Origin: an uncultured Pseudomonas sp. | GTDB taxonomy: Bacteria; Pseudomonadota; Gammaproteobacteria; Pseudomonadales; Pseudomonadaceae | DNA: 56,821 bases | Assembly (NCBI RefSeq): GCF_913777995.1 | Contig: NZ_CAJYVE010000047.1 | Coordinates: forward strand, 1 to 56,821 | Direction: 5' to 3' | Shown here: positions 4,569 through 24,445 of the stretch, piece after piece | How positions within the stretch are numbered: position 1 is the first letter of the stretch | Layout: every line of letters starts with the position of its first letter | Position numbers and translations under genes: made by a program | The notes under the pieces: generated by a model | Database searches by the model: none | Seen by the model: only the letters and a program-made list of their open reading frames with translations | Told to the model about the DNA's origin: nothing

Positions 4569-4625
4569 CCGTCGCGCAGACCCAGCCTCAGCCCACGGGG
4601 CTCTGCGTGAGCCGGCGGTAGGCGG

Positions 4626-4647
4626 GGCATGGCGCCTGGGCCATGCC
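4626..4647 (+). other. Intercistronic hairpin between mtlE and mtlF
   Basis: An 8-bp perfect stem (GGCATGGC/GCCATGCC) with a six-base loop sits in the 132-base gap after mtlE and has no T run. Such structures protect the upstream message from 3' decay and raise binding protein over permease. This role is inferred from position. Confidence 0.5.
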
Positions 4648-4700
4648 TGGGCGATCCGCTCTCTGCTCACGTCACCACCCATTACGCCCTCGGAGGCATG

Positions 4701-5633: not shown

Positions 5634-5643
5634 GGGCAATCGG

Positions 5644-6477: not shown

Positions 6478-6492
6478 CAGGAGACCTTCCAC

Positions 6493-7596
<1,104 letters not shown>

Positions 7597-7622
7597 CGCC
7601 GCTTTACCAAGGGATTTTCCAG

Positions 7623-9098: not shown

Positions 9099-9100
9099 GC

Positions 9101-10600
9101 ATGTACCTCGGTATCGATTGCGGCACCCAGGGCACCAAGGCGCTGGTGCTGGATGCCGACAGCGGCCAGGTGCTCGGCGCGGGTAGCGCCAGCCATACGC
9201 TGCACAGCGGCGCCAATGGCCGACGCGAGCAGCAACCGCAGCAGTGGCTGGACGCTTTCGAACAGGCCACCCGCGAAGCACTGGCCACCGCCGGTATCAG
9301 CGGTGAGCAGATTCTGGGTATTGGCGTTTCGGGTCAGCAGCACGGCCTGGTGCTGCTCGATGAGCAAGGCACGGTGCTGCGCCCGGCCAAGCTCTGGTGC
9401 GACACCGAGTCGACCCCGCAGAACCGGCTTCTACTCGATCATCTCGGCGGCGAGGCGGGGTCGCTGCAGCGCCTGGGCGTGGCCATCGCACCGGGCTATA
9501 CGGTGTCCAAGCTGCTGTGGACGCGTGAGCACCACCCGGACCTGTTCGCCCGCATCGCGCATATCCTGCTGCCGCATGACTACCTCAACTACTGGCTCAC
9601 CGGGCGTGCCTGCAGCGAGTATGGCGACGCCTCCGGCACGGGCTATTTCGATGTCCGCACGCGCAGCTGGGACCGCGCGCTGCTCAACTTCATCGATCCC
9701 AGCGGGCGGCTGCAGCACGCGTTGCCGCCGTTGCTCGAAGCGCATCAGCCGGTGGGCCGCATTCGCCGGCAGATCGCCCGCCAACTGGGGCTCAACCCCG
9801 AGGCCGTAGTCGCCAGTGGCGGCGGCGACAACATGATGGGCGCCATCGGCACCGGCAACATCCGCCCAGGGGCGATCACCATGAGCCTGGGTACCTCCGG
9901 CACCCTCTACGCCTATAGCGATAAGCCGATGGTCAGCCCGCATGCGCAGGTGGCGACCTTCTGTTCGTCATCCGGGGGTTGGCTGCCGCTGATTTGCACG
10001 ATGAACCTCACCAGTGCCACGGGGTTGGTCCAGCAACTGCTGGAGGTGGATCTGCAGCGCTTCGGCGATTTGGTCGAGCAAGCGCCGATCGGCGCCGAGG
10101 GCTTGCTGATGCTGCCGTTCTTCAATGGCGAACGGGTGCCGGCACTGCCCGACGCGCGTGCCAGCCTGAGGGGCATGGACGGGGGCAACCTGACCCGCGC
10201 CAACCTGTGTCGGGCAGTGGTCGAGGGCACCAGCTTCGGCCTGCGCTATGGTCTTGACCTGCTGCGCGCCAGCGGCCTGCAAAGCCAGACCATCCAGTTG
10301 ATCGGCGGCGCGGCGAAGAGTCCGGTGTGGCGCCAGGTGATTGCCGACATCATGGGCACCCCCTTGGTTTGCCCGCAGCACACCGAAGCCGCCGCGCTGG
10401 GCGCTGCCATCCAGGCCGCCTGGTGCGTGATGCCCGGCGCGGATCGCCAGGCGCAGCTTGCCGCGCTGTGCGAGCGTTGCGTGCAGCTCGATGCCAGTAC
10501 GCACACCCAGCCAGACCCGGCGCGCACGGCGCAGTACGAACGCGTCTATCAGCGCTACCGTGAGCAGGTCAGCCTGCTGGCCGAGAACCCATTGGCGTGA
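9101..10600 (+). CDS. mtlY: Xylulokinase
   Basis: A 499-residue FGGY-family sugar kinase expected to phosphorylate D-xylulose, the product of arabitol oxidation by MtlD. The N-terminus MYLGIDCGTQGTKALVLD is the first phosphate-binding motif, GQQHG follows near residue 73, and the second ATPase lobe carries SGGGDNMMGAIGTG. A C-terminal QLIGGAAKSPVWRQ matches the adenosine motif. It starts two bases after mtlD. A 73-base gap before mtlZ contains an imperfect inverted GAACGCC/GGCG patch but no terminator. Confidence 0.92.
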   Translation: MYLGIDCGTQGTKALVLDADSGQVLGAGSASHTLHSGANGRREQQPQQWLDAFEQATREALATAGISGEQILGIGVSGQQHGLVLLDEQGTVLRPAKLWCDTESTPQNRLLLDHLGGEAGSLQRLGVAIAPGYTVSKLLWTREHHPDLFARIAHILLPHDYLNYWLTGRACSEYGDASGTGYFDVRTRSWDRALLNFIDPSGRLQHALPPLLEAHQPVGRIRRQIARQLGLNPEAVVASGGGDNMMGAIGTGNIRPGAITMSLGTSGTLYAYSDKPMVSPHAQVATFCSSSGGWLPLICTMNLTSATGLVQQLLEVDLQRFGDLVEQAPIGAEGLLMLPFFNGERVPALPDARASLRGMDGGNLTRANLCRAVVEGTSFGLRYGLDLLRASGLQSQTIQLIGGAAKSPVWRQVIADIMGTPLVCPQHTEAAALGAAIQAAWCVMPGADRQAQLAALCERCVQLDASTHTQPDPARTAQYERVYQRYREQVSLLAENPLA

Positions 10601-10673
10601 GAACGCCTTGAAGAGCACCTTTGAAAACGCCGGTCGTTGGCTCAGGTGCCTGTGAACCGATAGGGAGACACCC

Positions 10674-11627
10674 ATGTACCTGGTCTGTGGCGAAGCGCTG
10701 TTCGATGTGTTCATCCAGAACGACGGCCCGCGTAGCAACGAGCTGGCCTTCAAGGCCATCGCTGGTGGTTCGCCGTTCAACGTGGCGTTGGGGCTGCGCC
10801 GTCTGGGCGCCGTGTCGGCGCTGTTCACTGGCATCTCGTCGGACAGCCTCGGCCAACGGCTGCGCCAGGTGCTGCGCGAGGAGGGCGTCAGCGACGCCTG
10901 CCTGATCGCCAGCGATGCGCCGACCACCCTGGCCATGGTCGGCCTGGACGCCGAAGGCTCGCCGCATTACTCGTTCCGTGGCGAAGGCTGCGCCGACCGC
11001 CTGCTGCGTGCCGAGCATCTGCCGGCACTCGATGCCCAGGTGCGCGGCCTGCATGTCGGCTCGTTCTCGCTGGTGGTGGAACCGGTGGGCAGTACGCTGC
11101 TGCAACTGGTCCAGCGCGAACATCAGCAGCGCCTGATCAGCCTCGACCCCAACGTACGGCTCGGCCCGGCGCCGGACATCGCGCGCTGGCGTGAACGCGT
11201 CGAGGCCTTTGCCCGCTACGCGCACCTGATCAAGGTCAGCGAAGAAGACCTGCAACTGCTGTACCCCGAGCGCGACCCGCAACAGGTCGCGGCGGCCTGG
11301 CGCAACGAACGCTGCCAACTGGTGTTCCTCACCCACGGCAGCCAGGGCGCCAGCGTGCACAGCCGCCACGGGCAATGGTCAGCGCCCGCCGTGGCGGTCA
11401 CCACCCGCGACACCGTCGGGGCCGGCGACACCTTCCAGGCTGCGCTGCTCAGCTACCTGGCCCGCCACGCACTGGATACCCCCGAGGCGCTGGCGACGCT
11501 CAGCCGTGAGCAGATCGACGCGATGCTGCGCCTGGCCATCGAGGCGGCCGCCGTGACCTGTTCGCGAGTCGGCCCGGACCTGCCTTACCTGCACGAGCTG
11601 AGCGGCGATCACCTGGCAGTGCGTTGA
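10674..11627 (+). CDS. mtlZ: Fructokinase (PfkB family)
   Basis: A 317-residue ribokinase/PfkB-fold kinase expected to convert fructose from MtlD into fructose 6-phosphate. The N-terminal glycine motif lies near GGSPFNVALGLRRLG (residues ~26-40). The C-terminal signature DTVGAGDTFQAALL holds the catalytic aspartate and the anion hole. AGGGAGACACCC precedes the ATG at 10674. It is the last gene of the mannitol run by function, and no U-tract terminator is seen before the following PrpF-family gene. Confidence 0.93.
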   Translation: MYLVCGEALFDVFIQNDGPRSNELAFKAIAGGSPFNVALGLRRLGAVSALFTGISSDSLGQRLRQVLREEGVSDACLIASDAPTTLAMVGLDAEGSPHYSFRGEGCADRLLRAEHLPALDAQVRGLHVGSFSLVVEPVGSTLLQLVQREHQQRLISLDPNVRLGPAPDIARWRERVEAFARYAHLIKVSEEDLQLLYPERDPQQVAAAWRNERCQLVFLTHGSQGASVHSRHGQWSAPAVAVTTRDTVGAGDTFQAALLSYLARHALDTPEALATLSREQIDAMLRLAIEAAAVTCSRVGPDLPYLHELSGDHLAVR

Positions 11628-11702
11628 ACATCCTTGAGTCGGAGCGCGGCATGGCGTGCTAGCCTGCCGGCTCCACTGCCCCGCACTCAATCTGGAACGA
11701 TC

Positions 11703-12938
11703 ATGCCCAACGCCGAAGACTTGACTGCACATTCCATCGATTTGCGCTGCCGCGTCCATCTGGGGGTGATGGAAATCCCCGTGCATTACATGCGCGGTGG
11801 CACGTCCACCGGGGTGGTGATCTGGGAGCCCTTGCTGCCGAAGGATGAAGCGCTGCGCGACGAGTTGCTGCGGCATCTGATGGGGGTTCCGCAGGTGGGT
11901 GAGGCTCCGGGCAATCGGCAGATAGCCGGCCTGGGGCGTGGTCCGGCGACCAGCAACAAGGTGTTCCTGGCCAGGGTCGAACAGACGCCGGCCGGGCCGC
12001 GCCTGGTCAGTACGCTGGCGCAGCTGGCCAGTGGTCATGCCGGCATCGACTGGAGCGTGAACTGCGGGAACATGTCTTCGGCCTTGCCGCTCTGGGCGTT
12101 TGACAGCGCGATGATCGAGGCGCCCAAAAAAGGCGCCTGCGAGGTCGAGATTTTCAACAGCAATACCGGGGTCGTCACCCTCAGCCGCATGTGGCGGGGC
12201 GATGACGGTCGCTTTGCGCTGGCGGACATTCCTGGCGTGCTCGGAGCCTTCCCACGGGTCGATCTGTTCTTGCAGGATCCGGTTGGCAGCAAGACCGGGG
12301 TGCTGCTACCGACCGGCGCAGTGGTCGATGAGATCGAAGGCCATGAAGTGTCCTGTGTCGACGTGGCGGTGCCGATGGTCATCGCCAAGGCGGCGAGCTT
12401 TGGCAAGACCGGCCATGAATCGATCGCGGAGCTGGAAGGCGATGCGGCCTTCATGGCCGAGTTGCGCAAGGTCTGGGTGGCGGCGGGGCTGAAAATGAAG
12501 CTGCGCCGTCGCGACGGCGAGCTGATGACCCGCGCGGAGATCGAGCGCAGCGAAACCATTCCCAAGGTGTGCATCGTCGGCGCCCCGACCGAGGGCGGCA
12601 ATATCACGGTGCGTTACTTCACGCCACAGACCGGGCATGCCTCCATGGCGGTCTCGGGAGGCTGCTGCCTGGCCGCAGCCTGCCTGTTGCCGGGCAGCAC
12701 GGCGCATCAGGTGGCGCAACGGGTGAGCGCACCTGGCGCGACCTTTGGCGACATAGAGGTGAGCATCGAGAACCCGGCCGGCAAACTGGATGCGACGGTC
12801 ACCGCCCGGTGTGTCGAACAGCGAATCGAGATCCAGGCAGCCGCCTATCGCCGCAGTACGCAGATTCTCATGCGCGGGCATGTTCCCCTTTATGGCGCTT
12901 CAGCGGCGTTGCTCGATGCCCTGATCGGAGCACTCTGA
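11703..12938 (+). CDS. PrpF-family isomerase/tautomerase
   Basis: A 411-residue member of the PrpF family (diaminopimelate-epimerase fold). The family includes methylaconitate isomerase, aconitate isomerase and 4-oxalomesaconate tautomerase. The diagnostic N-terminal PVHYMRGGTSTG, the central NCGNMSSALP and the C-terminal TGHASMAVSGG are present. The substrate cannot be told from sequence. Start choice is uncertain: the ATG at 11703 is preceded by GGAACG, while an internal ATG at 11769 would give the shorter N-terminus usual for the family (EIPVHYMRGG). It follows mtlZ by 75 bases and could be read through, though no link to mannitol is known. A GC hairpin lies 35 bases downstream. Confidence 0.8.
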   Translation: MPNAEDLTAHSIDLRCRVHLGVMEIPVHYMRGGTSTGVVIWEPLLPKDEALRDELLRHLMGVPQVGEAPGNRQIAGLGRGPATSNKVFLARVEQTPAGPRLVSTLAQLASGHAGIDWSVNCGNMSSALPLWAFDSAMIEAPKKGACEVEIFNSNTGVVTLSRMWRGDDGRFALADIPGVLGAFPRVDLFLQDPVGSKTGVLLPTGAVVDEIEGHEVSCVDVAVPMVIAKAASFGKTGHESIAELEGDAAFMAELRKVWVAAGLKMKLRRRDGELMTRAEIERSETIPKVCIVGAPTEGGNITVRYFTPQTGHASMAVSGGCCLAAACLLPGSTAHQVAQRVSAPGATFGDIEVSIENPAGKLDATVTARCVEQRIEIQAAAYRRSTQILMRGHVPLYGASAALLDALIGAL

Positions 12939-13295: not shown

Positions 13296-15287
13296 ATGGC
13301 CACGATTCGGATCCGCTACACCCTCATGTTCCTTGCTTTCATCGTTGCCACTATCGCGGCCACCGTCATCGGTATTCGCCTGTGGGTAACGCCGGACCTG
13401 GTCGCCGCTGGCGAGGCCTCGGTGCTGACCCGGGTCAACGATGTCGGCACCCGTATCTACCGCGAGCTGAATCAGATCCAGTCGCAGCAGCGCGCGATCA
13501 CCCAGGCGGTGCCGCTGCTGGACAGCCCGATGATCGATAAAGTGCTACCGGGCCTGGTAGACCAGTACGGTGACGTCAAGGTATTCGGCGGCGGTATCTG
13601 GCCATTGCCCAACCAACGCGAGCAGGGGCGTGACAAGTTCAGCACCTTCTACCACCGCGATGCCTCCGGCAAGCTGATCGTCAACACCCATTGGAACTCG
13701 GCCGAATCGCTCAACTACTGGGAACAACCCTGGTACCTCGCCGGCCTCAAGGCGCCCGCCGGGCAGTGCGCCTGGGCGGCTGCCTACAAGGATGCCGCGA
13801 GTGCCGAACCGCGCACCAACTGCGCCATGGCCATCCAGCGTGATGGCAAGCCTTACGGCGTGGCGACCATCGACATGACCCTGGGCTTCTTCAACCCGCT
13901 GGTCAACGACTTGCGCAAGAGCCTGGACGACACCGACATGATGATCGTCGAGGCAGACGGCAAGATCCTCAGCAACCTGACCGAGCTGGGCGATTCGCAG
14001 ATCCTCAACAACGTTTCCGCCTATGCTGGCCGTTCGCCCTTCGTTGCCGCCATCCAGCGCAACCTGGGCAAGCTGCAAGGCGATGCCGTGGTGCGCGATT
14101 TCTACGAAGACGAACACGGTACGCCGCACAGTTTCTTCCTGCGTCCCCTGGCCGGTACGCCTTGGCTGCTCGCCACCGCATTGCCGACCTCACTGCTGCA
14201 CGCCACCAACACCAGCATTCTGCAGACCCTGGCGCTGATCCAGTTGCCCCTTGTGGTACTGCTGGCGGCGATCATGGTCCTGGCGCTCGGCAAACTGATG
14301 GGGCGCCTGGGCATGCTGCAACGCAATATCGAATCCCTCTCGGCTGGCGATGCCGACCTGACCCGTCGTGTGCCGGTGCAGGGCAAGGACGAGGTGGATG
14401 CCGTGGCCGGTGCGGTGAATACCTTCATTGCCTACCTGCAACGCCTGATGGGCGAGGTGGGCGACGCGACCCAGCGCATCAACAGCGGTATCCGGCAGTT
14501 GCACGGGCAAGCCCAGCAGACCAGCTCCATCCTGGGCCGCCATGCCGCCGAGACCGACCAGGCGGTGACTGCCATCACCGAGATGAGCGCCACCTCCGAC
14601 TCCGTATCGCGCAGTGCCAGCGACACCGCCGACCTGACCCGCGCAGCCAACGGCCAGGCCGAACATTCACGGCTGACCGTGCAGCAGGCTTCCAATAGCG
14701 TGTTGGCGCTGGTCGAGCAGGTGGACGACGCCACGCTGAAGGTCAAGGCCATGGAAACCGATGCCGAGCGCATCAACCAGGTGCTGGGGGTGATCGGCGA
14801 GATCGCCGGGCAGACCAACCTGCTGGCCCTCAATGCCGCTATCGAAGCAGCGCGGGCTGGCGAGCAGGGCCGCGGGTTCGCGGTGGTGGCCGATGAGGTG
14901 CGGGCGCTGGCCGGGCGTACCCAGCAGAGCACCGCCGAGATCAACGAGATGCTCGGGCGGTTGCAGCAGGGCGTCAGCTCGGCGGTGTCGGCCATGGAAG
15001 TGACCAAGGCCAGCTGCCAGAGCACCGCTGACAAGACCCGTCAGGTGACTGCCGGCCTGGATGAGATGAGCGGTTCGGTGGCGCGCATCAGCGACCTGTC
15101 CACGCAGATCGCGACCGCTGCCGAGCAGCAGAGCGCGGTGGCTGGCGAGATCAACCAGAACATGGTCGCGGTACGCCACATGGTTGAAGAGCTGGTGACC
15201 AGTGGGACGCGCACCGCCGAAGGCACGACCGCAGTGCAGCAGTCCAACGAGCAGTTGATCGCCCTGGTCGGCCGCTTCAAGGTCTGA
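13296..15287 (+). CDS. Methyl-accepting chemotaxis protein with periplasmic double-Cache sensor
   Basis: A 663-residue transmembrane chemoreceptor. Helix 1 is at about residues 8-28. A ~270-residue periplasmic part follows with Cache-type features (FGGGIWP, the [13 protein letters not shown]-like segment near 140, [12 protein letters not shown]). Helix 2 is near residues 308-330 ([20 protein letters not shown]). Then come a HAMP segment and the signalling domain, whose hairpin tip reads [34 protein letters not shown]. The length and layout match Pseudomonas dCache_1 receptors for amino acids or amines, but the ligand cannot be read from sequence. The ATG follows GAATAAGAA with only a weak ribosome binding site. 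The gene is monocistronic, bounded by a FliA-like promoter and a bidirectional terminator. Confidence 0.93.
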
Positions 15288-15299
15288 CCGCCACCGACG

Positions 15300-15330
15300 A
15301 AGGCCTGAGCGGTCGCTGCTCAGGCCTTTT
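15300..15330. terminator. Bidirectional terminator between convergent genes
   Basis: An eleven-base stem AAGGCCTGAGC/GCTCAGGCCTT with a seven-base loop is followed by TTTT on the plus strand and mirrored by A residues upstream. It ends the chemoreceptor transcript and may also end the minus-strand operon whose last stop is at 15335. Confidence 0.8.
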
Positions 15331-15334
15331 CGTT

Positions 15335-16489
15335 TCAGTCGCGGCAGACGAATTCGAGCACGCGCTCGAGCATGGCGTCACAGGCGGCCAGTTGCTCGAC
15401 GCTGACGAATTCGTCGGGCTTGTGGCCCTGGTCCATGCTGCCGGGACCGCAGACCACCGTCGGCACGCCCGCCTGGTCGAACAGGCCGCCCTCGGTGCCG
15501 AAGGCCACCGTACCGAAATCACGCGAGCCGCAGAACTGCGCCAGCCACTCGGCGGCCGGGCTGTCCGGTGCGGTGTACAGCCCCGGGTAGCTGGACAGTT
15601 CATGGAAGTGGATGGCGCTCTGGCCGCTGACCGCCTGCATGGCCGGCAGCAGACTGTGCTGCGCGTAGTCGCGCAACTGTTCCAGCACGTGGGCCGGGTT
15701 CAGCGAGGGCAGGGCGCGCACTTCGAAGTCGAAGCGGCAGTGTTCCGGCACGATGTTCAGTGCCTGGCCACCCTGGATCACGCCGGTCTGCACGGTGGAG
15801 AAGGGTGGGTCGAAGTTCGTGTCGCAATGTTCCTGCGCTTTCAGGGTCTCGGCCAGGCGGCCCAGCTCGCCGATCAGCCGCGCGGCGTATTCGATGGCGT
15901 TCACCCCTTGCGGGGTGTAGGCCGAATGGCAGGCCGCGCCTTTCACTTCGCAACGTATCGCCAGCTTGCCCTTGTGCCCCAGCACCGGCTTGAGTTCGGT
16001 GGGTTCGCCGATCACGCAGAGCATCGGTTTCACCGCGCGCTGGCTCAGTTGCGCGAGCAGGCCGCGCACGCCCAGGCAGCCGACTTCTTCGTCGTAGGAC
16101 AGCGCCAGGTGCAGGGGGCGGCGCAAGGGTGCCTTGACCGCCGCCGGCACCAGCGCCAGCACGCAGGCCAGGTAACCCTTCATGTCGGCGGTGCCGCGCC
16201 CGTAAAGCCTGCCCTCGGCTTCGGTGAGTTCGAAGGCCGGGCGCGTCCAGGCCTGGCCGTCCACCGGCACTACGTCGGTGTGGCCGGACAACACGATACC
16301 CGGATGCTCCTGCGGGCCAATGGTAGCGAACAGGTTGGCCTTGGTACGGCTGTCGTTGTAGGTCAGCTCGGCGCTGACACCGAACGCGGCCAGGTAGTCG
16401 CGCACGTAGTCGATCAGGGCCAGGTTGGATTCGCGGCTGGTGGTGTCGAAGGCCACCAGCCGAGCCAGCAGGGCACGGCTGTCGTTCAT
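15335..16489 (-). CDS. ArgE-like M20-family deacetylase
   Basis: A 384-residue zinc hydrolase of the M20/ArgE group; members remove an N-acyl group from amino acids such as N-acetylornithine. The metal and catalytic residues are visible: H70 and D72 in SGHTDVVPVDG, D102 in GRGTADMKGY, E134/E135 in YDEEVGCLG, plus a GEPTELKPVLGHKG segment characteristic of acetylornithine deacetylases. The ATG overlaps the stop of the DUF1028 gene by four bases, so the two are coupled. As the last gene of an eight-gene catabolic-looking operon, it more likely acts on an intermediate of that pathway than in arginine synthesis; this is inference. It is therefore not given the symbol argE. Confidence 0.85.
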   Translation of the reverse strand: MNDSRALLARLVAFDTTSRESNLALIDYVRDYLAAFGVSAELTYNDSRTKANLFATIGPQEHPGIVLSGHTDVVPVDGQAWTRPAFELTEAEGRLYGRGTADMKGYLACVLALVPAAVKAPLRRPLHLALSYDEEVGCLGVRGLLAQLSQRAVKPMLCVIGEPTELKPVLGHKGKLAIRCEVKGAACHSAYTPQGVNAIEYAARLIGELGRLAETLKAQEHCDTNFDPPFSTVQTGVIQGGQALNIVPEHCRFDFEVRALPSLNPAHVLEQLRDYAQHSLLPAMQAVSGQSAIHFHELSSYPGLYTAPDSPAAEWLAQFCGSRDFGTVAFGTEGGLFDQAGVPTVVCGPGSMDQGHKPDEFVSVEQLAACDAMLERVLEFVCRD

Positions 16490-17163
16490 CGGTCGTCTCC
16501 CGGAACGCCGTAGCCCGGCGCACGGTCCGGGGCCAAGGCGCGGTCGATGTAGTCCTGCAGTTGCGGCCGGTAGGCCTGCCAGAGTTTCGCCAGTTCACCG
16601 ATAGGGTCCTGCTCGGCCCAGTCGACGCGCAGGTTGACGATCGGCCAACTGGGCTCGCCGACCACCAGCACGGCCGCCGAATGCACCGGGCCGGCTTCGC
16701 CACCCGCGGCCATGGCCGCCTGCATGGCGTGGATCAGGCGTTCGGCGAGCGGCCCGGTTGACTGTTCGAAGGCTTCGACCAGCACCTGGACCACGCGCGG
16801 GTCCTTGAGCATGTTGCCCGCTCCGACACAGTCACGGCCGCTGAGCGCGTGGTTTACGCCGAGGGTCTGGCTGCCGCTGAAATGTGCCGTGCGGCCCTGC
16901 GCGTCGATGACCGTCACCTGGCGATAGGCGCTGTAGGCGTCCTCGGCCAGGCTCAGGCGCAGCGCCTGTTGCGGGTCCTCGCCATGGCCCAGGTGGTCCA
17001 GGGTACGCGGGCCGAGCGCCGGCAGGGTGATGTTCTGCGAGCTTACCGCCCCGACACCCGGCCGTAGCCACGGGCAGCGCGCGCCCACGGCGATGCTCGA
17101 CGAGCTGATGGCGATGCCCAGTTGGCCGGTCTTGGCGCAGCGCGCCGTGATGGAAAAGGTCAT
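16486..17163 (-). CDS. DUF1028 family protein (putative Ntn-type amidohydrolase)
   Basis: A 225-residue protein of the DUF1028 family, recognised by the N-terminal MTFSITARCAKTGQLGIAIS, the central SQTLGVNHALSGRDCVGAGNML segment and NLRVDWAEQDPIGEL near the end. The fold is thought to resemble N-terminal-nucleophile hydrolases, but function is not established. Family members often sit beside RidA and peptidase or deacetylase genes, as here. It begins ten bases after the RidA-like stop and overlaps the ArgE-like start by four bases. GGAGG lies just before the ATG at 17163. It is plausibly an amidase on the pathway substrate; this is inference. Confidence 0.85.
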   Translation of the reverse strand: MTFSITARCAKTGQLGIAISSSSIAVGARCPWLRPGVGAVSSQNITLPALGPRTLDHLGHGEDPQQALRLSLAEDAYSAYRQVTVIDAQGRTAHFSGSQTLGVNHALSGRDCVGAGNMLKDPRVVQVLVEAFEQSTGPLAERLIHAMQAAMAAGGEAGPVHSAAVLVVGEPSWPIVNLRVDWAEQDPIGELAKLWQAYRPQLQDYIDRALAPDRAPGYGVPGDDR

Positions 17164-17173
17164 GCGCGCCTCC

Positions 17174-17590
17174 TTATTCGGGAATCACCGCGATTACGTC
17201 GATTTCCATCAGCCACTGCGGCTGGCCGAGCGCGGAGACCACCAGGCCGGTGGAGATGGGGAACACGCCCTTGAGCCATTTGCCGACTTCCTGGTAGACC
17301 GGCTCGCGGTAGCGCGGGTCGATCAGGTAGGTGGTGGTCTTGACGATATGGCTCAGGTCGCTGCCAGCCTCTTCGAGCAGTTGCTTGACGTTCTTCATGG
17401 CCTGTTCGGCCTGGGCACGCGGGTCGCCGAGGCCGACCAGGTTGCCGTCGAAGTCGGTGCCCACCTGGCCGCGCACGTACACGGTGTTGCCAGCGCGTAC
17501 CGCCTGGCACAGGTCGTTGTCCAGGGTCTGGTTGGGGTAGGTGTCCTTGGTGTTGAACATGCGGATGCGGGTGTGGGTCGGGGTGCTCAT
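17174..17590 (-). CDS. RidA/YjgF-family protein lacking the deaminase arginine
   Basis: A 138-residue member of the RidA superfamily (trimeric, cytoplasmic). The start is the ATG at 17590, preceded by AGGAG with six-base spacing; the open frame above it is not coding. Family features include GNTVYVRGQVGTD, QAMKNVKQLLEEAG and HIVKTTTYL. In RidA proper the motif FPARSCVEV carries the Arg (R105 in E. coli) needed for 2-aminoacrylate deamination. Here the same place reads FPISTGLVV, so that Arg is a Ser. This places it with the Rid subfamilies that lack imine deaminase activity, whose roles are mostly unknown. It sits between the flavin monooxygenase and the DUF1028 gene. Confidence 0.88.
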   Translation of the reverse strand: MSTPTHTRIRMFNTKDTYPNQTLDNDLCQAVRAGNTVYVRGQVGTDFDGNLVGLGDPRAQAEQAMKNVKQLLEEAGSDLSHIVKTTTYLIDPRYREPVYQEVGKWLKGVFPISTGLVVSALGQPQWLMEIDVIAVIPE

Positions 17591-17648
17591 GGCAGGCTCC
17601 TGAACAGGGTAGGGCGGCATGCGCTCGGGCATGCCGCAGCAGGGAACA

Positions 17649-18941
17649 TCAGGCGATACGCGACTGGGCGGCCGGCTCGGCGCTGGCGGCGGCGGGCGGA
17701 TAGTTCTGGTATTTGCGCTGGATGGCGATCTGGTCGGCGACATGCCGGGCATCGTGCCAGGCGCCCCAGATGAACGCCGATCCGCGACGGCTCAGCCAGG
17801 GCAGGCCGACGAAGTAGATACCCGGTTCGGCACCCACGCCCCGCTGGTGGCGCGGCTTGCCGTTGGCGTCGAAGGTGTCGACCTGCAGCCAGCTGAAATC
17901 GTTGGCGTAGCCGGTCGCCCAGATCACCGAGGTCACGCCGTGGGCCGCCAGGTCCAGTTCGCGCAGTGGCTCGCGAATGCACGCCGCATCCGGCACGCGC
18001 TCACGCGCCCCGGGCTCCTCCGGCATGTCCAGGCCGTTGCGCGCCACATAGGCGTCGGCGGCATCGAGCAGGGCCAGGTAGTTGGCGTCGCCGGCATCGA
18101 GGTTGTGCACCAGGTCGTCCTTGAAGCGCACCTTGCCATCGGCGAAGGTGTCGGTCAGGCCGACCAGGGTCATGCCGGCCTGGGCCAGGCGGCGGAAGTC
18201 CACGGTGTGCCCGCCGCGTGCGCCGCTGACGGCGATGGTCACGTGTTCGCGGCCCTTCTGCATGGTCTCGGTGTCCCACAGGCCGAGCACGCCCAACCAC
18301 CAGCAGAAGTCGCGGCCGCGATAGGCGCGCGGCGGACGGTCGTGGGGGCCGACCGACAGGTAGACACGCTTGCCGGCGCGCAGCAGTTCGTCGGCGATCT
18401 GTACGCCGGAAGAGCCGGCACCCACCACCAGGACCGCGCCTTCGGGCAGTTGCTGGGGGTTGAAGTACTGCGCGGAGTGGATCTGGTACAGGCCCTCGTC
18501 TTGTGGGGCGATGGCCGGAATCACCGGTTTCTGGAACGGCCCGGTGGCCACCACGACGCGTTGCGCATGCACGCTGCCTGCCGAGCTTTCGACGATGAAG
18601 CCGCTCTGGCCTTCGCAGCGGCTGACCCGGGTCACGGCCACGCCGGTGCGGATCGGTGCCTTGATGTGGCGGGCGTAGGTTTCGAAGTATTCGGCGATCT
18701 CGTCCTTGCCAGGGAAGCCGTCCGGGGGCGTCTGGAATTCCAGGCCCGGAAAGCGATCGTGCCAGGCCGGTCCGTTGGCCACCAGCGAGTCCCAGCGCCC
18801 GGTGCGCCAGGCTTCGGCAATGCGGCTCTTTTCCAGCACCAGGTGCTCGATGCCCAGGCGGCCCAGGTGTTCGCTCATCGCGACGCCGGCCTGTCCGGCG
18901 CCCACCACCAAAGTGTCGATCGTGGTCGGTAATTTGTTCAT
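17649..18941 (-). CDS. Flavin-containing monooxygenase-like oxidoreductase (CzcO type)
   Basis: A 430-residue FAD/NADPH oxidoreductase. The FAD dinucleotide motif GAGQAG is at residues 14-19 and the NADPH motif GAGSSG at 174-179, with ATGPFQKPVIP between them. The GLYQIHSAQY segment stands where the FMO fingerprint FxGxxxHxxxY is expected but is degenerate. A late ATGY (IWATGYANDF) is present. Such enzymes oxidise amines, thioethers or ketones (N-hydroxylation or Baeyer-Villiger reactions). The gene is fifth in the minus-strand operon, with 58 bases before the RidA-like gene. In this context it probably performs an oxygen-dependent step on a nitrogen-containing substrate; this is inference. 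Confidence 0.87.
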   Translation of the reverse strand: MNKLPTTIDTLVVGAGQAGVAMSEHLGRLGIEHLVLEKSRIAEAWRTGRWDSLVANGPAWHDRFPGLEFQTPPDGFPGKDEIAEYFETYARHIKAPIRTGVAVTRVSRCEGQSGFIVESSAGSVHAQRVVVATGPFQKPVIPAIAPQDEGLYQIHSAQYFNPQQLPEGAVLVVGAGSSGVQIADELLRAGKRVYLSVGPHDRPPRAYRGRDFCWWLGVLGLWDTETMQKGREHVTIAVSGARGGHTVDFRRLAQAGMTLVGLTDTFADGKVRFKDDLVHNLDAGDANYLALLDAADAYVARNGLDMPEEPGARERVPDAACIREPLRELDLAAHGVTSVIWATGYANDFSWLQVDTFDANGKPRHQRGVGAEPGIYFVGLPWLSRRGSAFIWGAWHDARHVADQIAIQRKYQNYPPAAASAEPAAQSRIA

Positions 18942-19050
18942 GACGGTACCCTTCGGCCGCCCGCTGGGGGTTCGGCCGTCAATCTGACAGTAGGAATCGA
19001 GTACGCGGCCCTGCTGTTGACTGCGTCCGGGCCGACGTCTTGTGTGCGTC

Positions 19051-19782
19051 TCAGTCCAGCACGGAAGGGTCCGCCTGGATCATCAGCGCCTTCATTTCGG
19101 CGAAGTGCTGCTCGGAAAAGTCGGTGATCTTTTCCCAGGCGCGTGCGGTCTTTTCCGCCACCTCGTCGGACAGCACGCGCAGCGGCTGGCCGGTGGACCA
19201 GGCGGCGACCAGCACCTGGCAGGCACGCTCCAGGGTCCAGATGTCGTCGAAGGCCTCGCCGATGGTCGGTGCGATCACCATCACCCCATGGTTGCCCATC
19301 AGCAGCCGCCGCTTGCCATCCAGCAGCCCGGCCAGGCGCGCGCCCTCGGCTTCGGTGTCGGCCATGCCGCCATACAGCTCGTCGATGGCCAGACGGTTGA
19401 AGTAGCGCGCGGTGTTCTGGTCGATGGGCGGTACGTGCGGCTTGGCCAGGCAGGCCACCGCCGTGGTGTAGACCGGATGCAGGTGCAGCACCACACGCGC
19501 TTCGGGCAGACGCCGGTGGATCTGTCCGTGAATCGACCAGGCGGTGGCGTCCACGTCGTCACGCTCGGCGTTGTGCGGGTCGTCCGCGTCGAGCAGCAGC
19601 AGGTCGCTGGCGCGGATGCGCGAAAAGTGCTTCCACTTCGGGTTGAGCAGGAAGCGCTTGCCGTCCTCGGACACGGCGGCACTGAAATGGTTGGCGACGG
19701 CTTCGTGCATGCCCAGGTGGGCAATGACGCGGAAGGTCGCCGCCAGGTCGATGCGCAGCTGTTCCTCGTGGGAGAGTGCCAT
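19051..19782 (-). CDS. Class II aldolase/adducin family protein
   Basis: A 243-residue zinc aldolase-fold protein. Residues near HEAVANHFSAAV, the zinc-site segment VVLHLHPVYTTAVACL and MGNHGVMVIAPT are the class II aldolase/adducin landmarks. Members split or decarboxylate 2-oxo or hydroxy acids, but many are uncharacterised. I chose the ATG at 19782 (MALSHEEQL), which has CTGGAGTGA upstream, over an in-frame ATG at 19812. A 109-base gap separates it from the monooxygenase gene and 51 bases from the binding-protein gene. It could cleave the carbon skeleton produced by the dioxygenase or monooxygenase; this is inference. Confidence 0.85.
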   Translation of the reverse strand: MALSHEEQLRIDLAATFRVIAHLGMHEAVANHFSAAVSEDGKRFLLNPKWKHFSRIRASDLLLLDADDPHNAERDDVDATAWSIHGQIHRRLPEARVVLHLHPVYTTAVACLAKPHVPPIDQNTARYFNRLAIDELYGGMADTEAEGARLAGLLDGKRRLLMGNHGVMVIAPTIGEAFDDIWTLERACQVLVAAWSTGQPLRVLSDEVAEKTARAWEKITDFSEQHFAEMKALMIQADPSVLD

Positions 19783-19833
19783 GGTCTTCACTCCAGAAGG
19801 GTCGTCTGCCAAACGCGGACGACCGGTGAGGGG

Positions 19834-20667
19834 TCAGGGTTTGGGCATCAGCTCGGCGATGTCCGCTTCGGTGGGGGCCTGGAAGTTGTACTTCTTCAGC
19901 AGGGCCGCGTATTCGGGGGTTGCGCTGTATTGCTTGAGGGCGTCGACCAGTGCGGTCTTCACCTCGTCGTTGCCTTTCTTCACGCCGAAGCCGTTGAGCA
20001 CCGGGTAGATCAGCGTGTCCGAGGAAATCACCAGGCGGTTGCCCAGCTTGTCGATCACCCCACGGGCCACGGCGGCGTCGGTGATCTGCGCCTCGACGGC
20101 CTTGGACAACAGCGCCTGGGTGGTCTGCGGGTCGGTGCCGAACTCGCTGATGGCGATCGGCTGCTTGCCGTTCTTCACGCAGTACTCGTCCGAGAGCTTG
20201 TGCAGTTGCTGCAGCCAGGAGGTCGCGCCCATCGAGCCGATCTTGTGGCCGCAGAAGTCTTCGGGGCGCTTGGGCTGATAGCTGCTGTCCTTGAGGGCGA
20301 TGATCGACTCGCCACTCTTGAGGTAGGGAATCATGTCGATGACTTTCATGCGCTCGGCGGTGATGTACATCGACGAGTTGACGATGTCGAAACGACCACC
20401 CTGCAGCCCGGTGATCAGGTTGGGAAAGCGCGTGTCGAGGGTTTCCACCTTGCGCCCCATGACCTTGCCCAGCCCGTCGAGGAACTCGATGTCGAAGCCG
20501 GCCGGCTGGTTGTTGTCCATGTACTCGTAGGGGAAGAAGGTCAGGTCCGAGCCTGCGCTGAGCTTGCCGGGTTGCTGGAAGGCCGAAGCGCCTGCCGAGG
20601 CCAGGGTGATCGCGGTGCCCAGCAGGGCGGTGGAAAGTGTTCGAGTCGAGACGCTTGGTCGTTTCAT
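19834..20667 (-). CDS. ABC transporter substrate-binding protein (polar amino acid family)
   Basis: A 277-residue periplasmic binding protein, SBP family 3. The start is the ATG at 20667 (MKRPSVSTRTL); the longer open frame runs antisense to the dioxygenase gene and is rejected. Residues 1-28 form a signal peptide ending in ASAGASA. The mature core has FFPYEYMDNNQPAGFDIEFLDGL-type and DTRFPNLITGLQGGRFD segments, typical of amino-acid and opine binders. A Cys pair (DFCGHKIG and DEYCVKNG) may form a disulfide. It surely serves the fused permease-ATPase encoded two genes upstream. The ligand is likely a zwitterionic or cationic amino-acid-like compound. Confidence 0.9.
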   Translation of the reverse strand: MKRPSVSTRTLSTALLGTAITLASAGASAFQQPGKLSAGSDLTFFPYEYMDNNQPAGFDIEFLDGLGKVMGRKVETLDTRFPNLITGLQGGRFDIVNSSMYITAERMKVIDMIPYLKSGESIIALKDSSYQPKRPEDFCGHKIGSMGATSWLQQLHKLSDEYCVKNGKQPIAISEFGTDPQTTQALLSKAVEAQITDAAVARGVIDKLGNRLVISSDTLIYPVLNGFGVKKGNDEVKTALVDALKQYSATPEYAALLKKYNFQAPTEADIAELMPKP

Positions 20668-20695
20668 GACGATGCTCCGCTGAGTGGGTAAAGGA

Positions 20696-21568
20696 TCAAC
20701 TGGCGGCCTGGTCGAGCCCGGCCTGTTGTACGAAGAAGGAAGCGCCGCGGGGCTTCTGCGGCAGGCGCACGCTGTTGGCGACGCTGCGTACCAGGCCGCT
20801 TTCCTGACCGGCGACCAGTACGCCGCAATGCTCGCTGGGCAGCGGGTTGTCGCCGAAGGGCAGGGCGTCCTCGGCGGCGTACACGCTGATGAACAGGGTG
20901 CGTGGCAGTTCGGTGTTGTTGGGGCTGGAGGCATGCAGCAGGCGGGTGTGCATGAAGCACACCGAGCCGGCCGGGCCGTAGCAGGCCACCGGCTGGCCGC
21001 AATGCTCGGCCACCACCTGGTCGTCGACGGCGCCGGTGAAGCGCCCGTCCTGCCAGTGCGACCACAGCGGGCCTTTGTGGCTGCCACGGATCACAGTCAG
21101 CGGACCGTTCTGCGGGGTCACTTCGCTGACCATCAGCAGGGCGGTGACCACGTCGTCATTGCTGTGCGGGGTGAACAGAAAATCCTGGTGCCATTTCACC
21201 TGGGTGGCGGTGTGCGGCAGCTTGGAGTTGATCTTGCTGTGGTGAAAGCGCGTGCCGCTGCCGCCGATCAGCTGTGCGGCGATGGTGGCCATCCGTGACT
21301 TGAACGCCACTTCGCGGTAGGCCGGTGAGATCTCGGTCGGCGAACTCACCCGGCGCAGCGAGGGGTGAGTGGCGCTGTGATCGCTTTCGATGTCGAAGCG
21401 CGGGCGGCCGTCCTGGGTCTTGCCCCAAGGCTGGGTGTGGCTGCGGCTGTCTTCCACCCACAGGTCGAAGTCGCCCTGCAGGGCAATGAGTTCTTCCTCC
21501 GACAGCACGTTCTCGACGACCAGGAATCCGTCCCGGTGAAACTGTTCGATCTGCGATTGTTCGAGCAT
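20696..21568 (-). CDS. PhyH-family Fe(II)/2-oxoglutarate dioxygenase
   Basis: A 290-residue phytanoyl-CoA dioxygenase-fold enzyme. The iron triad is readable: H127 and D129 in KWHQDF and H212 in LLHASSPN. R223 follows eleven residues later, where the 2-oxoglutarate-binding Arg is expected. A GPLTVIRGSHKG stretch is typical of the family, which includes ectoine hydroxylase and many small-molecule hydroxylases. It lies between the fused transporter gene (33-base gap) and the binding-protein gene (28-base gap). Placement inside an uptake operon suggests it hydroxylates the imported substrate or releases an N- or O-alkyl group. The exact substrate is unknown. Confidence 0.88.
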   Translation of the reverse strand: MLEQSQIEQFHRDGFLVVENVLSEEELIALQGDFDLWVEDSRSHTQPWGKTQDGRPRFDIESDHSATHPSLRRVSSPTEISPAYREVAFKSRMATIAAQLIGGSGTRFHHSKINSKLPHTATQVKWHQDFLFTPHSNDDVVTALLMVSEVTPQNGPLTVIRGSHKGPLWSHWQDGRFTGAVDDQVVAEHCGQPVACYGPAGSVCFMHTRLLHASSPNNTELPRTLFISVYAAEDALPFGDNPLPSEHCGVLVAGQESGLVRSVANSVRLPQKPRGASFFVQQAGLDQAAS

Positions 21569-21601
21569 GGCTTAGGTTTTCCGAGTAAGTGGGTGGAAAG
21601 C

Positions 21602-23122
21602 TCAGGCGAGCGACACATCCTTGAGAAAGGCCTCGACCCGTGGGTGCTGGCCATTGCGCAGAACCTGGGGGGCGTCGTCGCACACCACCCGGCCCTTTTC
21701 CATGAAGACGATGCGGTCCGAGACCTTGAAGGCGAAGTTCATCTCGTGGGTGACGATCACCATGGTGATGCCCTCCTGGGCCAGCGACTCGATCACTTGC
21801 AGTACCTCGTTGACCTTCTCCGGGTCGAGGGCCGAGGTCGGCTCGTCGAACAGCATGATTTGCGGGCGCATCATCAGCGCGCGGGCAATGGCCACGCGCT
21901 GTTGCTGGCCGCCGGACAGCTGGTGCGGGTACTTCCAGGCGTGATCGAGCATGCCGACCTTGTGCAGCAGCGCGTAGGCCTGCTGCTTGAGCGCGGCGGG
22001 TTCGTCCAGGTGGTGGTAGCGCGGGGCGAGCAGCAGGTTGTCGAGCACGCTCAGGTGCGGGAACAGGTTGAAGCTCTGGAACACCATGCCGATGTTCAGG
22101 CGGTGCTCGGTGTGTTCGATGAAGCGGGGCTTCTGCGCGCCGTCCTTGCGCAGGTGGATGAACGGCTGGCCGTTGATCTGGATCTCGCCGTTGTCGAGCT
22201 GTTCCAGGCCATTGAGCAGGCGGATCAAGGTGGTCTTGCCGGAGCCCGACGGGCCGATCACCGACACTACTTCACCGGGCTTGACCTGCAGGTTGACCGA
22301 GCCGAGCACCTCGACATCGTTGTACGCCTTGTGCAGCCGCGCAGCCTGCAGGGCGGGGGTGTGCAGGTCGAGCACCGGGCGCTGCACGGCGGCGGCCTGC
22401 TGGGTGGCCAGGGCCAGCACCTGCTCGTCGGGGGTACGGGTCACTTCACGCTGGGTGACATCGAGGAAGCGTTCCAGGCGTTTGAGCAGGAAGTCGAACA
22501 CGGTGACGATCAGCACGTAGTAGAAGGCCACGGCAGCCATGGTTTCCATGACCAGGAAGTTCTGTGAATACAGGCGCTGGCCGACCATCAGGATCTCGGT
22601 CAGGGAAATCACCGAGACCAGCGAACTCAGCTTGACGATGGAGATGTACTCGTTGGCCAGCGACGGCAAGGCTACACGCAGCGCCTGGGGGATCACCACG
22701 CGCCATTGCGTGCCCAGAAAACGCAGGCCCAGGGCTCGTGCCGCTTCACCCTGGCCCTTGGGAATCGACAGCAGGCCGCCACGGTGGATCTCGGCGACGT
22801 AGGCGGTCTCGCAGATCACCAGGGCGATGAGACCGGCCCAGAAGGGGTTGGCCAGCACCGCCGAAGTGGCCGGGATGGCCTGCGGCAGGTTGTAGATGAA
22901 GATCAGCAGCACCAGCAGTGGCACGCTGCGGAAGAACCAGATGTAGCCCCGCGCGGGCAGGTTGAGTGCGGGTAAGCGGGACTGCTTGGCCAGGGCGACG
23001 AAAAACCCCAGGGCGATGCTGATGACCCAGGTCAGGGTGCTGAGCTTGATGACCGTCCAGGTGGCCAGCCAAAACTGTGTATCGCCAAAAAGGCCGAACA
23101 TGTATTTCCAGTCGAAGGTCAT
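21602..23122 (-). CDS. Fused amino-acid ABC transporter permease-ATPase
   Basis: A 506-residue single polypeptide joining a HisM-type permease (residues ~1-222) to a GlnQ/HisP-type ATPase (~255-506), linked by ~35 polar residues. The permease half has about five membrane helices and the EAA loop GEAARALGLRFLGTQW (125-140). The ATPase half has Walker A GPSGSGKTT (290-298), Q349, signature LSGGQ (402-406), Walker B IMLFDE (422-427) and a switch His in VIVTHEM. These are usually separate proteins. The fusion is in one uninterrupted frame with all motifs intact. It is the first gene of the minus-strand operon, divergent from the LysR gene, and would need to dimerise to form a complete importer with the downstream binding protein. 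Confidence 0.92.
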   Translation of the reverse strand: MTFDWKYMFGLFGDTQFWLATWTVIKLSTLTWVISIALGFFVALAKQSRLPALNLPARGYIWFFRSVPLLVLLIFIYNLPQAIPATSAVLANPFWAGLIALVICETAYVAEIHRGGLLSIPKGQGEAARALGLRFLGTQWRVVIPQALRVALPSLANEYISIVKLSSLVSVISLTEILMVGQRLYSQNFLVMETMAAVAFYYVLIVTVFDFLLKRLERFLDVTQREVTRTPDEQVLALATQQAAAVQRPVLDLHTPALQAARLHKAYNDVEVLGSVNLQVKPGEVVSVIGPSGSGKTTLIRLLNGLEQLDNGEIQINGQPFIHLRKDGAQKPRFIEHTEHRLNIGMVFQSFNLFPHLSVLDNLLLAPRYHHLDEPAALKQQAYALLHKVGMLDHAWKYPHQLSGGQQQRVAIARALMMRPQIMLFDEPTSALDPEKVNEVLQVIESLAQEGITMVIVTHEMNFAFKVSDRIVFMEKGRVVCDDAPQVLRNGQHPRVEAFLKDVSLA

Positions 23123-23241
23123 CGTTATCAGGCCCGTTTGAGGAATGTGAAGTGCACGCTTAGTTGTGAGCGCCGTGTACCGATGCCTACAGAATCAATA
23201 ACCGAGTGACTTATCGTCAATTAGAAAATTACGTGCCTTTG

Positions 23242-23258
23242 CATAGGATTGTCCTATG
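23242..23258. promoter_or_regulatory. LysR-type operator palindrome
   Basis: CATAGGATTGTCCTATG is a perfect 7+3+7 palindrome and contains T-N11-A, the LysR box. It lies 119 bases upstream of the transporter ATG and 251 bases before the LysR gene, inside the 387-base divergent gap 23123-23509. No other strong motif is seen in that gap, which is markedly AT-rich around the palindrome. Confidence 0.65.
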
Positions 23259-23509
23259 TTAGTTATTGAGCTAGTTGTCCGGCTGACGGTGTTCAGTAAT
23301 ATGCTCTACGAGGGTGCGTGGCGCTGCTCATGGCCCGGATTTGCAGTATTTTGGTGCGCATTGGCAGGCCGGGTTCGGGTGTGGTTTTTAGCCATGTAGC
23401 GGATTTAACGGCGGTTTTACTGGGCGTGGCGGGCGTGGCACGGCTTTCGCTTGTGGATTGCAAACTATTCAGAAATCTGCACTGAAAAGTTTTTGGCTAT
23501 GGAGTTGTG

Positions 23510-24445
23510 ATGACCCACTTTACGTTGAGACAACTTCGATACTTTGTCGCCGTGGTCGAAGAAGACAGTATTGTCGAGGCCGCTCGACAATTGCATATCT
23601 CCCAGCCGTCCATTTCGGTGGCCATCAAGAATCTTGAAGAAAGTTTCAGTCAGAAGTTATTCATTCGGCATCACGCCCAAGGCGTTTCGCTGACCGCCAG
23701 CGGTCGCCGGCTGTATGAAAAAGCCAAGGAATTGCTGAGGCTCTCCTACGAGCTTGAACAGAACGCTCGTGCCGAGAACGAAATGGTCTCCGGCACCATC
23801 GCCATCGGCTGTTTCGAGTCGGCAGCGCCGCTGTACATGCCGCGCCTGGTGGCCGGTTTCAAGCGGCATTACCCGGAGATCACCATCCAGCTGCACGACG
23901 GCGAGCAGCACGAGCTGATGCATGGCGTGCACCGGGGGCGCTTCGACCTGGTGTTCCTCTACGACCTGGAGCTGGGTGACTCGATCAACAAGGAAAAGCT
24001 CAACGCCCCGCACAAGCCCTATGCGCTGCTGCCGGCAGCGCATCCGCTGGCCGGCAAGAAGGCCGTGACCCTCAAGGAGCTGAGCCGCGAACCGATGATC
24101 CTGCTCGACGTGGTGCCAAGCCGGAACTACTTCATCGACATCTTCAAGGAGAAGGGCTATCACCCGACGGTCGCCTACAGCTCGCCCTCGATCGAAATGG
24201 TGCGTTGCATGGTCGGCCAGGGCCTGGGCTTCTCGGTGCTGGTCACCCGCCCGACCACCGACCTGACCTACGACGGCAAGCGCCTGGCGCAGGTCAACAT
24301 CCATGACGAAATGCCTGCGTCGACCTTCATCATGGCCTACCTGCGCAACAACGAACCCACCAAGGCCACGCGGCTGTTCATGGACTACTGCCGCGATTTC
24401 GATCTGTCGCCGGTCATCAAGGAAGACGAGCCGTACGCTGTATGA
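23510..24445 (+). CDS. LysR-family transcriptional regulator
   Basis: A 311-residue LysR regulator. The N-terminal helix-turn-helix covers about residues 3-62 (LRQLRYFVAVVEEDS, AARQLHISQPSISVAIKNLEE). The rest is a periplasmic-binding-protein-like effector domain (GTIAIGCFESAAPLYMPRLV). An in-frame GTG at 23507 is also possible, but GGAG at 23501-23504 is better spaced for the ATG at 23510. It is divergent from the eight-gene operon and shares with it a gap carrying a perfect T-N11-A palindrome. It most likely activates that operon when its substrate or an intermediate is present; the effector is unknown. Confidence 0.92.
   Translation: MTHFTLRQLRYFVAVVEEDSIVEAARQLHISQPSISVAIKNLEESFSQKLFIRHHAQGVSLTASGRRLYEKAKELLRLSYELEQNARAENEMVSGTIAIGCFESAAPLYMPRLVAGFKRHYPEITIQLHDGEQHELMHGVHRGRFDLVFLYDLELGDSINKEKLNAPHKPYALLPAAHPLAGKKAVTLKELSREPMILLDVVPSRNYFIDIFKEKGYHPTVAYSSPSIEMVRCMVGQGLGFSVLVTRPTTDLTYDGKRLAQVNIHDEMPASTFIMAYLRNNEPTKATRLFMDYCRDFDLSPVIKEDEPYAV

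Follow-up and report, generated by a model that had tools for sequence, protein, structure and literature searches.

An eight-gene Pseudomonas cluster that probably joins a distinct upper unit to a HinFLHG-type module for imidazole-4-acetate

This work concerns eight closely spaced genes and a divergent LysR gene in DNA from an uncultured Pseudomonas species. The window, by which we mean the whole stretch of DNA that was analysed, is 56,821 nucleotides long and is the whole of contig C47 (NZ_CAJYVE010000047.1) of an assembly that is 92% complete (GCF_913777995.1). The eight reading frames lie on the minus strand from 23122 down to 15335, and the LysR gene diverges from them at 23507-24445. We consider it probable that the cluster consists of two joined modules with a HinK-like LysR regulator beside them: an upper half that would supply imidazole-4-acetate and a HinFLHG-type lower half that would turn it into aspartate. 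The features are these, with the Pfam and NCBIfam profiles or other basis in brackets:

21602..23122, minus strand: fused ATP-binding cassette (ABC) permease-ATPase of polar amino-acid type, 506 aa (BPD_transp_1 at residues 36-220, ABC_tran at 275-430)
20696..21568, minus strand: PhyH family Fe(II)/2-oxoglutarate dioxygenase, 290 aa (PhyH, 1.9e-27)
19834..20667, minus strand: solute-binding protein (SBP) of family 3, 277 aa, with an N-terminal signal-like stretch (SBP_bac_3, 2.4e-29)
19051..19782, minus strand: class II aldolase-fold protein, NovR/TqaM-like, 243 aa (Aldolase_II, 4.4e-39; NF005689)
17649..18941, minus strand: HinF-type flavin monooxygenase (FMO), 430 aa, predicted imidazoleacetate monooxygenase (Pyr_redox_3/FMO-like families and tree clade)
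17174..17590, minus strand: HinL-type RidA protein, 138 aa (Ribonuc_L-PSP, 1.2e-22)
16486..17163, minus strand: HinH-type DUF1028 protein, 225 aa, predicted amidase (DUF1028, 9.1e-68)
15335..16489, minus strand: HinG-type M20 amidohydrolase, 384 aa, predicted N-formylaspartate deformylase (Peptidase_M20, M20_dimer; NF005710)
23507..24445, plus strand: LysR regulator, probably HinK-type, 312 aa (HTH_1, LysR_substrate; 6m5f_A, 371.5 bits over residues 1-297)
23243..23257, no strand: dyad ATAGGACAATCCTAT, candidate LysR operator, 135 bp upstream of the ABC start
15300..15328, no strand: 11-bp inverted repeat, candidate terminator, between the M20 gene and a convergent chemoreceptor gene (read from the sequence)

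All of these reading frames are present, and the profiles agree with the families that the original prediction, made from the same DNA, had named. From the ABC gene to the DUF1028 gene the gaps are 33, 28, 51, 109, 58 and 10 bp, and the DUF1028 and M20 genes overlap by 4 bp. This spacing is the only evidence that the eight genes may be cotranscribed. The probable starts of the SBP (20667), aldolase-like (19782) and RidA (17590) genes were taken from the extent of their matches in other loci; the longer frames given for these three genes in the list of open reading frames are upstream extensions. A promoter scan of the locus found 0 sites against 1.2 in shuffled sequence. A terminator scan found 6 against 6.0, no better than shuffled sequence, and left the inverted repeat at 15300..15328 unflagged.

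The lower half, made up of the FMO, RidA, DUF1028 and M20 genes, has the enzyme classes of the hinFLHG module in the order F-L-H-G. According to passages of PMC8231116, hinFLHG (PA5393-PA5390) convert imidazole-4-acetic acid to aspartic acid, and are under the control of HinK, a LysR protein responsive to imidazole-4-acetic acid. Passages of PMC6467879 give HinF as an FAD-monooxygenase (EC 1.14.13.5), HinL as an enamine deaminase, HinH as an amidase and HinG as an amidase of EC 3.5.1.8; for P. putida U the paper prints the accessions AWA45227-AWA45230 for HinH, HinG, HinF and HinL. By order and class the DUF1028 protein would be the counterpart of HinH and the M20 protein that of HinG. Judged by family, order and context, the assignment of the lower half as a module leading from imidazole-4-acetate to aspartate is well supported. 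The FMO would oxygenate imidazole-4-acetate, with opening of the ring, the RidA protein would handle an imine or enamine intermediate, and the DUF1028 and M20 proteins would remove the remaining N-formimino or N-formyl groups to leave aspartate. The likeness to hinFLHG of Pseudomonas putida U and P. aeruginosa extends to a LysR gene of probable HinK type nearby. The window genome differs in having no close hinC, and the ABC, PhyH, SBP and aldolase-like genes stand in front instead. The NCBIfam label of the M20 protein, NF005710, is that of an 'acetylornithine deacetylase' subfamily, and the one solved homologue of the DUF1028 protein, 2imh, is a hypothetical protein. The Rut pyrimidine pathway likewise opens an N-heterocycle with a monooxygenase, a Rid protein and hydrolases, but its monooxygenase and hydrolase families are different and so is its substrate.

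The original prediction knew of no characterised pathway with this combination of proteins. For the lower half this is not supported, since the FMO, RidA, DUF1028 and M20 genes share the classes and order of hinFLHG and also stand in loci with a hinC-type aminotransferase. The betaine or opine substrates it suggested are not supported either, as the lower half points to an imidazole. Its broader picture is supported: a single catabolic unit, equipped with an importer and a LysR gene of its own, that probably acts on a nitrogen-containing compound by way of oxygenation. Amide cleavage by the DUF1028 and M20 proteins is probable. We also considered opines, betaines, pyrimidine vitamins and N-acyl amino acids as substrates, in thought only, and dropped them for want of genomic support.

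The FMO-RidA-DUF1028-M20 block also occurs without the upper genes. It adjoins a class III aminotransferase-type gene, an aldehyde dehydrogenase and an NCS1-type permease in K. aerogenes, and a GMC oxidoreductase, an aldehyde dehydrogenase and a permease on a K. pneumoniae plasmid and in Acetobacter. A Rieske oxygenase and an ABC importer stand at the place of the upper unit in Caballeronia. These neighbours are what led to the comparison with histamine catabolism. In one genome (G204, locus L274) a single hin-type cluster is flanked by two RidA genes some 10 kb from each other, with 97% and 94% identity to the window's.

The regulator agrees with this assignment of the lower half. Over its first 297 residues it matches 6m5f and 3fzv with 371 bits; we take both to be P. 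aeruginosa proteins and 6m5f to be HinK. It is 70-72% identical to the LysR genes beside hin-type genes in six enteric loci, and it is probably of HinK type.

The whole gene set is conserved well outside the window. Of 190 relatives in our scan of named genomes the best 80 were retained, and the counts therefore describe the closest relatives and give no rate for all of them; loci of 9,000 bases or less were dropped from the synteny work. The ABC, PhyH, SBP and aldolase-like genes occur together in 79 of the 80 named loci, with ABC fusion copies 75-93% identical. The remaining locus (L123, Marinomonas) has the PhyH and aldolase-like genes with a different ABC system nearby, so this pair is present in 80/80. 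All eight families fall inside the fetched stretch in 59/80. The most conserved protein is RidA, which is 84-98% identical to the window copy wherever it is present in the named loci. The hosts are Pseudomonas, Stutzerimonas, Klebsiella, Raoultella, Kluyvera, Pantoea, Mangrovibacter, Chimaeribacter, Pluralibacter, Marinomonas, Oceanobacter and some metagenome bins. The synteny that the original prediction proposed to look for across Pseudomonas is thus found, and it reaches beyond that genus to Enterobacterales and marine gammaproteobacteria. Many enterics carry FMO-RidA-DUF1028-M20 as a separate second block, with the ABC gene on the other strand. Among these loci L112 has two adjacent SBP copies (64% and 60% identity), and in L082 and L102 the LysR and aldolase-like genes were each matched as two abutting pieces, which suggests frameshifts or assembly errors.

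Within the window's own genus PhyH is present in 24 of 249 genomes (E <= 1e-30), and all 24 are among the 175 of the 249 with a close RidA (hypergeometric probability 1.3e-4, with kinship ignored). A DUF1028 probe was run on 13 genomes, 11 without DUF1028 in the stretch around PhyH and 2 linked controls. It found DUF1028 in all 13, and in the 11 it lies elsewhere than the PhyH stretch. Six of these 11 unlinked genes sit in a hin-type locus with an aminotransferase of 81-93% identity (L297, L299, L300, L301, L304 and L264). Two lie with a HinF-type FMO, RidA and M20 (L302, L303), two with a second FMO type (L305, L306), and the last lies with M20 only, within the stretch (L307).

The aminotransferase is informative about what supplies the lower half. 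HinC-type aminotransferases in hin-type loci are 79-93% identical, leaving aside the locus the query came from. Three unlinked genomes whose aminotransferase was known beforehand served as positive controls and gave 81-93%. None of the 30 genomes with a HinF-type FMO beside PhyH has a HinC-type aminotransferase above 54% (one of the 30, L078, is without DUF1028 and M20 in its stretch), and in the window genome, at 92% completeness, the best match is 38%. On this evidence the supplier in linked genomes seems to be the PhyH unit in place of the histamine branch.

It could be argued that in this genome the lower four genes serve histamine or external imidazole-4-acetate, and that the PhyH transporter operon is no more than an unrelated neighbour. 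The halves can be separated and are indeed found apart. However, their joining is conserved across genera, and neither the window genome nor the 30 linked genomes hold a close HinC-type gene, so we think mere adjacency very improbable.

The FMO trees, built from non-identical rows with matched segments longer than 380 residues, suggest a history of repeated joining. In a tree of 116 distinct rows the window FMO falls in a 72-row clade (support 96) that includes the FMOs of the aminotransferase-bearing, hin-type loci. A separate 39-row clade (support 100, branch 0.92) holds the FMOs of PhyH loci of the P. fluorescens type and of clusters on plasmids from E. coli, Klebsiella and Pantoea. A more careful HinF-type tree was thinned from 80 to 56 rows by dropping FMO matches under 62%, same-label rows over 95% identical, and L229-L232. 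The PhyH-linked FMOs in it are mainly an enteric and marine group and a Pseudomonas and Stutzerimonas group, and both are nested in larger clades that also contain unlinked or hin-type FMOs. At least 5 changes between the linked and the unlinked state are needed on this tree, so the joining of the modules has been made or broken repeatedly, and this suggests that the two share an intermediate. FMO and LysR types go together: of the 80 loci, 42 have a HinF-type FMO with a window-type LysR, 27 have the other FMO type with another LysR, 1 has a HinF-type FMO with neither LysR, and 10 have no FMO in the stretch. On gene content the upper and lower halves are separable modules.

A related cluster is carried by plasmids of E. 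coli, Klebsiella and Pantoea and by one Pseudomonas genome (L219/L225, L226, L227, L306). It combines RidA-DUF1028-M20 and an FMO of the second clade with a polyamine-type ABC importer, a quinone oxidoreductase, a glutathione S-transferase (GST), a type II dehydroquinase, a 2-hydroxyacid dehydrogenase and, in some copies, an alpha-hydroxy acid oxidase. Klebsiella accounts for 110 of the 299 plasmid records with a DUF1028 match.

It is important to weigh what speaks against two modules joined at imidazole-4-acetate. Orthology to the characterised Hin proteins is argued from order, class and context. The window's LysR shares only 53-57% identity with those of Pseudomonas hin-type loci. The operator comparison, made on chosen subsets of promoters with up to 2 mismatches allowed, found the dyad ATAGGACAATCCTAT in 8 of 19 upper-unit promoters, all eight from Pseudomonas; it is absent from the other 11, the enteric ones included, and from all 32 FMO or hin-type promoters. 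An operator shared with the hin promoters was thus not seen, and a regulator site common to both modules was sought and not found in the compared promoters. In 27 of the 80 loci the partners of the upper unit are an FMO of the other clade and another LysR, and a HinF-type locus is retained as well in at least five of the genomes that have PhyH with the second FMO (G017, G175, G048, G139 and G209). Where such a separate locus is kept, the junction may not be imidazole-4-acetate.

These last two observations favour another account, in which the upper module does not supply imidazole-4-acetate but another compound acceptable to FMOs of both clades, such as a substituted imidazoleacetate, and the HinF-type genes are recruited paralogues of shifted specificity. 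It is harder to reconcile with the six of 11 unlinked-DUF1028 genomes that hold DUF1028 in a hin-type locus with an aminotransferase, and with PhyH-linked FMOs in separate parts of the HinF-type tree. We consider it unlikely, and we infer that imidazole-4-acetate is the compound at which the two modules meet.

We now turn to the upper half. The SBP and the fused ABC protein would import an imidazole compound with a three-carbon acid side chain. In the reading that we consider probable, PhyH would then hydroxylate this compound, and the aldolase-like protein would convert the 2-hydroxy acid so formed, imidazolelactate, to imidazole-4-acetate by oxidative decarboxylation. In the PhyH protein the iron triad H127, D129 and H212 and the 2-oxoglutarate arginine R223 are invariant in 16 aligned sequences, and both PhyH motifs are found in 102 of 104 matched copies, a figure in which a genome that was fetched twice counts as two. 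Its kin in the PDB include ectoine hydroxylase (4.7e-14). The closest solved kin of the aldolase-like protein are the NovR decarboxylase (1.2e-23) and then TqaM (5.6e-22), and the metal-site histidines of the HxH and NHG motifs are retained, so by sequence it groups with the NovR/CloR/TqaM family. NovR/CloR and TqaM are iron enzymes that carry out oxidative decarboxylation of 2-hydroxy acids. We propose that the window protein is likewise an iron-dependent oxidative decarboxylase and not an aldolase.

The opposite view is that PhyH makes a beta-hydroxy compound, N-acyl or similar, which a true class II aldolase then splits; the original prediction had also assigned a splitting step to this protein. 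The Aldolase_II match and the retained histidines allow this, and 4xxf, labelled fuculose-1-phosphate aldolase in the PDB, nearly equals TqaM with 3.1e-21. However, 4xxf has Gly at the position of Ala81, as TqaM does, and E. coli-type FucA entries match at about 1e-8. Ala81 is invariant in 16 aligned copies, NovR also has Ala there, and the position is presumably that of the FucA catalytic Glu, Glu73, although FucA itself was not aligned residue by residue. Splitting beta-hydroxyhistidine would not yield imidazole-4-acetate, and the lower four genes match a known imidazole pathway. With NovR and TqaM as the closest solved kin, we find a true aldolase improbable, and the aldol split is not supported.

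The proposed decarboxylase has a recognizable subgroup. The Gln in a TAWxIHGQ stretch is present in all 102 copies of at least 64% identity and in none of the 31 copies below 64%, with 3 short pieces set aside and each twice-fetched genome entered as two. In other proteobacterial genomes, aldolase-like proteins with identities of about 40-54% lie outside such clusters in the fetched 20-kb stretches. A Rhizobium plasmid (L228) carries a 70% copy of the same subgroup with RidA, DUF1028, M20, a D-2-hydroxyacid dehydrogenase, an HpaB-like monooxygenase and LysR; no PhyH match was found within its 20.7-kb stretch. A 2-hydroxyacid dehydrogenase is frequent in clusters with the other FMO type, and some of these clusters include an alpha-hydroxy acid oxidase, which the enteric plasmids with the related cluster carry as well. 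The hydroxyacid dehydrogenase on the Rhizobium plasmid and the alpha-hydroxy acid oxidase on the enteric plasmids both point to a 2-hydroxy acid.

If the modules meet at imidazole-4-acetate, the 2-hydroxy acid with one more carbon is imidazolelactate, which PhyH could make most simply from imidazolepropionate. This gives an alpha-oxidation route: imidazolepropionate would be imported and hydroxylated by PhyH to imidazolelactate, the TAWxIHGQ-bearing NovR/TqaM-like iron enzyme would oxidatively decarboxylate this to imidazole-4-acetate, and HinFLHG would carry it on to aspartate. As a complete route this is tentative and, in our opinion, rather doubtful.

One difficulty lies in the binding protein. 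Aligned with E. coli HisJ/ArgT, the compared SBPs keep HisJ Arg77 in 9 of 9 and Asp161 in 6 of 9, and the window type has Tyr at HisJ Ser72 and Phe at position 14. The equivalents of Arg77 and Asp161 presumably hold the alpha-amino acid in HisJ, and they would suit histidine derivatives better than imidazolepropionate. One could therefore keep the same two modules and let the imported compound be an alpha-amino acid, an N-methylated or otherwise substituted histidine. PhyH would hydroxylate next to the nitrogen, leading to demethylation or to deamination to imidazolepyruvate, and the aldolase-like protein would oxidatively decarboxylate the 2-oxo or 2-hydroxy acid to imidazole-4-acetate. The importer is of the polar amino-acid type, with an SBP of family 3 and a fused ABC protein, the change from Ser72 to Tyr could suit a substituted amino group, and in Caballeronia the place of the upper unit is taken by a Rieske oxygenase with an ABC importer. 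However, a single PhyH step cannot lead from an amino acid to imidazolelactate, the operon has no reductase or aminotransferase, and the SBPs beside PhyH in L123 and L174 have a gap at the Asp161 position (the second L112 copy has Asn there). Import of a substituted histidine is a possibility to which we give less than even weight. These mixed clues from the SBP make a histidine derivative as likely as imidazolepropionate; we infer that the imported compound is one or the other. Plain histidine is unlikely to need the upper route, as the window genome encodes histidine ammonia-lyase. Imidazolelactate, imidazole-4-acetate and histidine appear in a table of PMC4192682 on common bean root exudates, and imidazoles from such exudates fit plant-associated hosts.

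Two known systems resemble the proposed upper half. TqaL/TqaM of fungal 2-aminoisobutyrate biosynthesis also pair a 2-oxoglutarate oxygenase with a NovR/CloR-like oxygenase of class II aldolase fold, but that pathway is biosynthetic and valine-derived, with a hydrolase step in between, and the kinship we tested here is to TqaM only. The alpha-oxidation of phytanic acid also begins with alpha-hydroxylation by PhyH and continues with one-carbon shortening, but on CoA esters and with another shortening enzyme. Full-text literature searches, which covered few subscription journals, gave no link of PhyH or the class II aldolase-like protein to imidazole-4-acetate. A Polynucleobacter study (PMC7522526) contains both family names, once each, and searches with DUF1028 and combinations of the family names returned nothing matching. 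The upper-half route is thus described in none of the searched literature, while the lower half is already known. The original prediction had called the operon unassigned, and this stands for the first four genes and falls for the hinFLHG-like last four.

A chemoreceptor with a dCache domain lies at 13296-15287, convergent to the operon. We considered it as a member and left it out: a signalling-domain match is found near M20 in 7 of 61 loci, and no other fetched locus has a match to its ligand domain. Further along the window, 3258-12938 holds a carbohydrate ABC importer, a mannitol-type dehydrogenase, FGGY and PfkB kinases and PrpF, and looks like an ordinary sugar-alcohol operon.

We believe the value of this work is that a widespread cluster of unknown purpose is assigned to imidazole catabolism. 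If the two-module reading is right, there is an oxidative way into imidazole-4-acetate besides histamine, a role for an uncharacterised subgroup of the aldolase-like family NF005689, and a reason why DUF1028, RidA and M20 genes travel together. Imidazolepropionate is a gut-derived metabolite linked to human disease. Should the alpha-oxidation route be true, it would provide a genetic route for the aerobic removal of this compound and a catabolic use of the NovR/TqaM fold.

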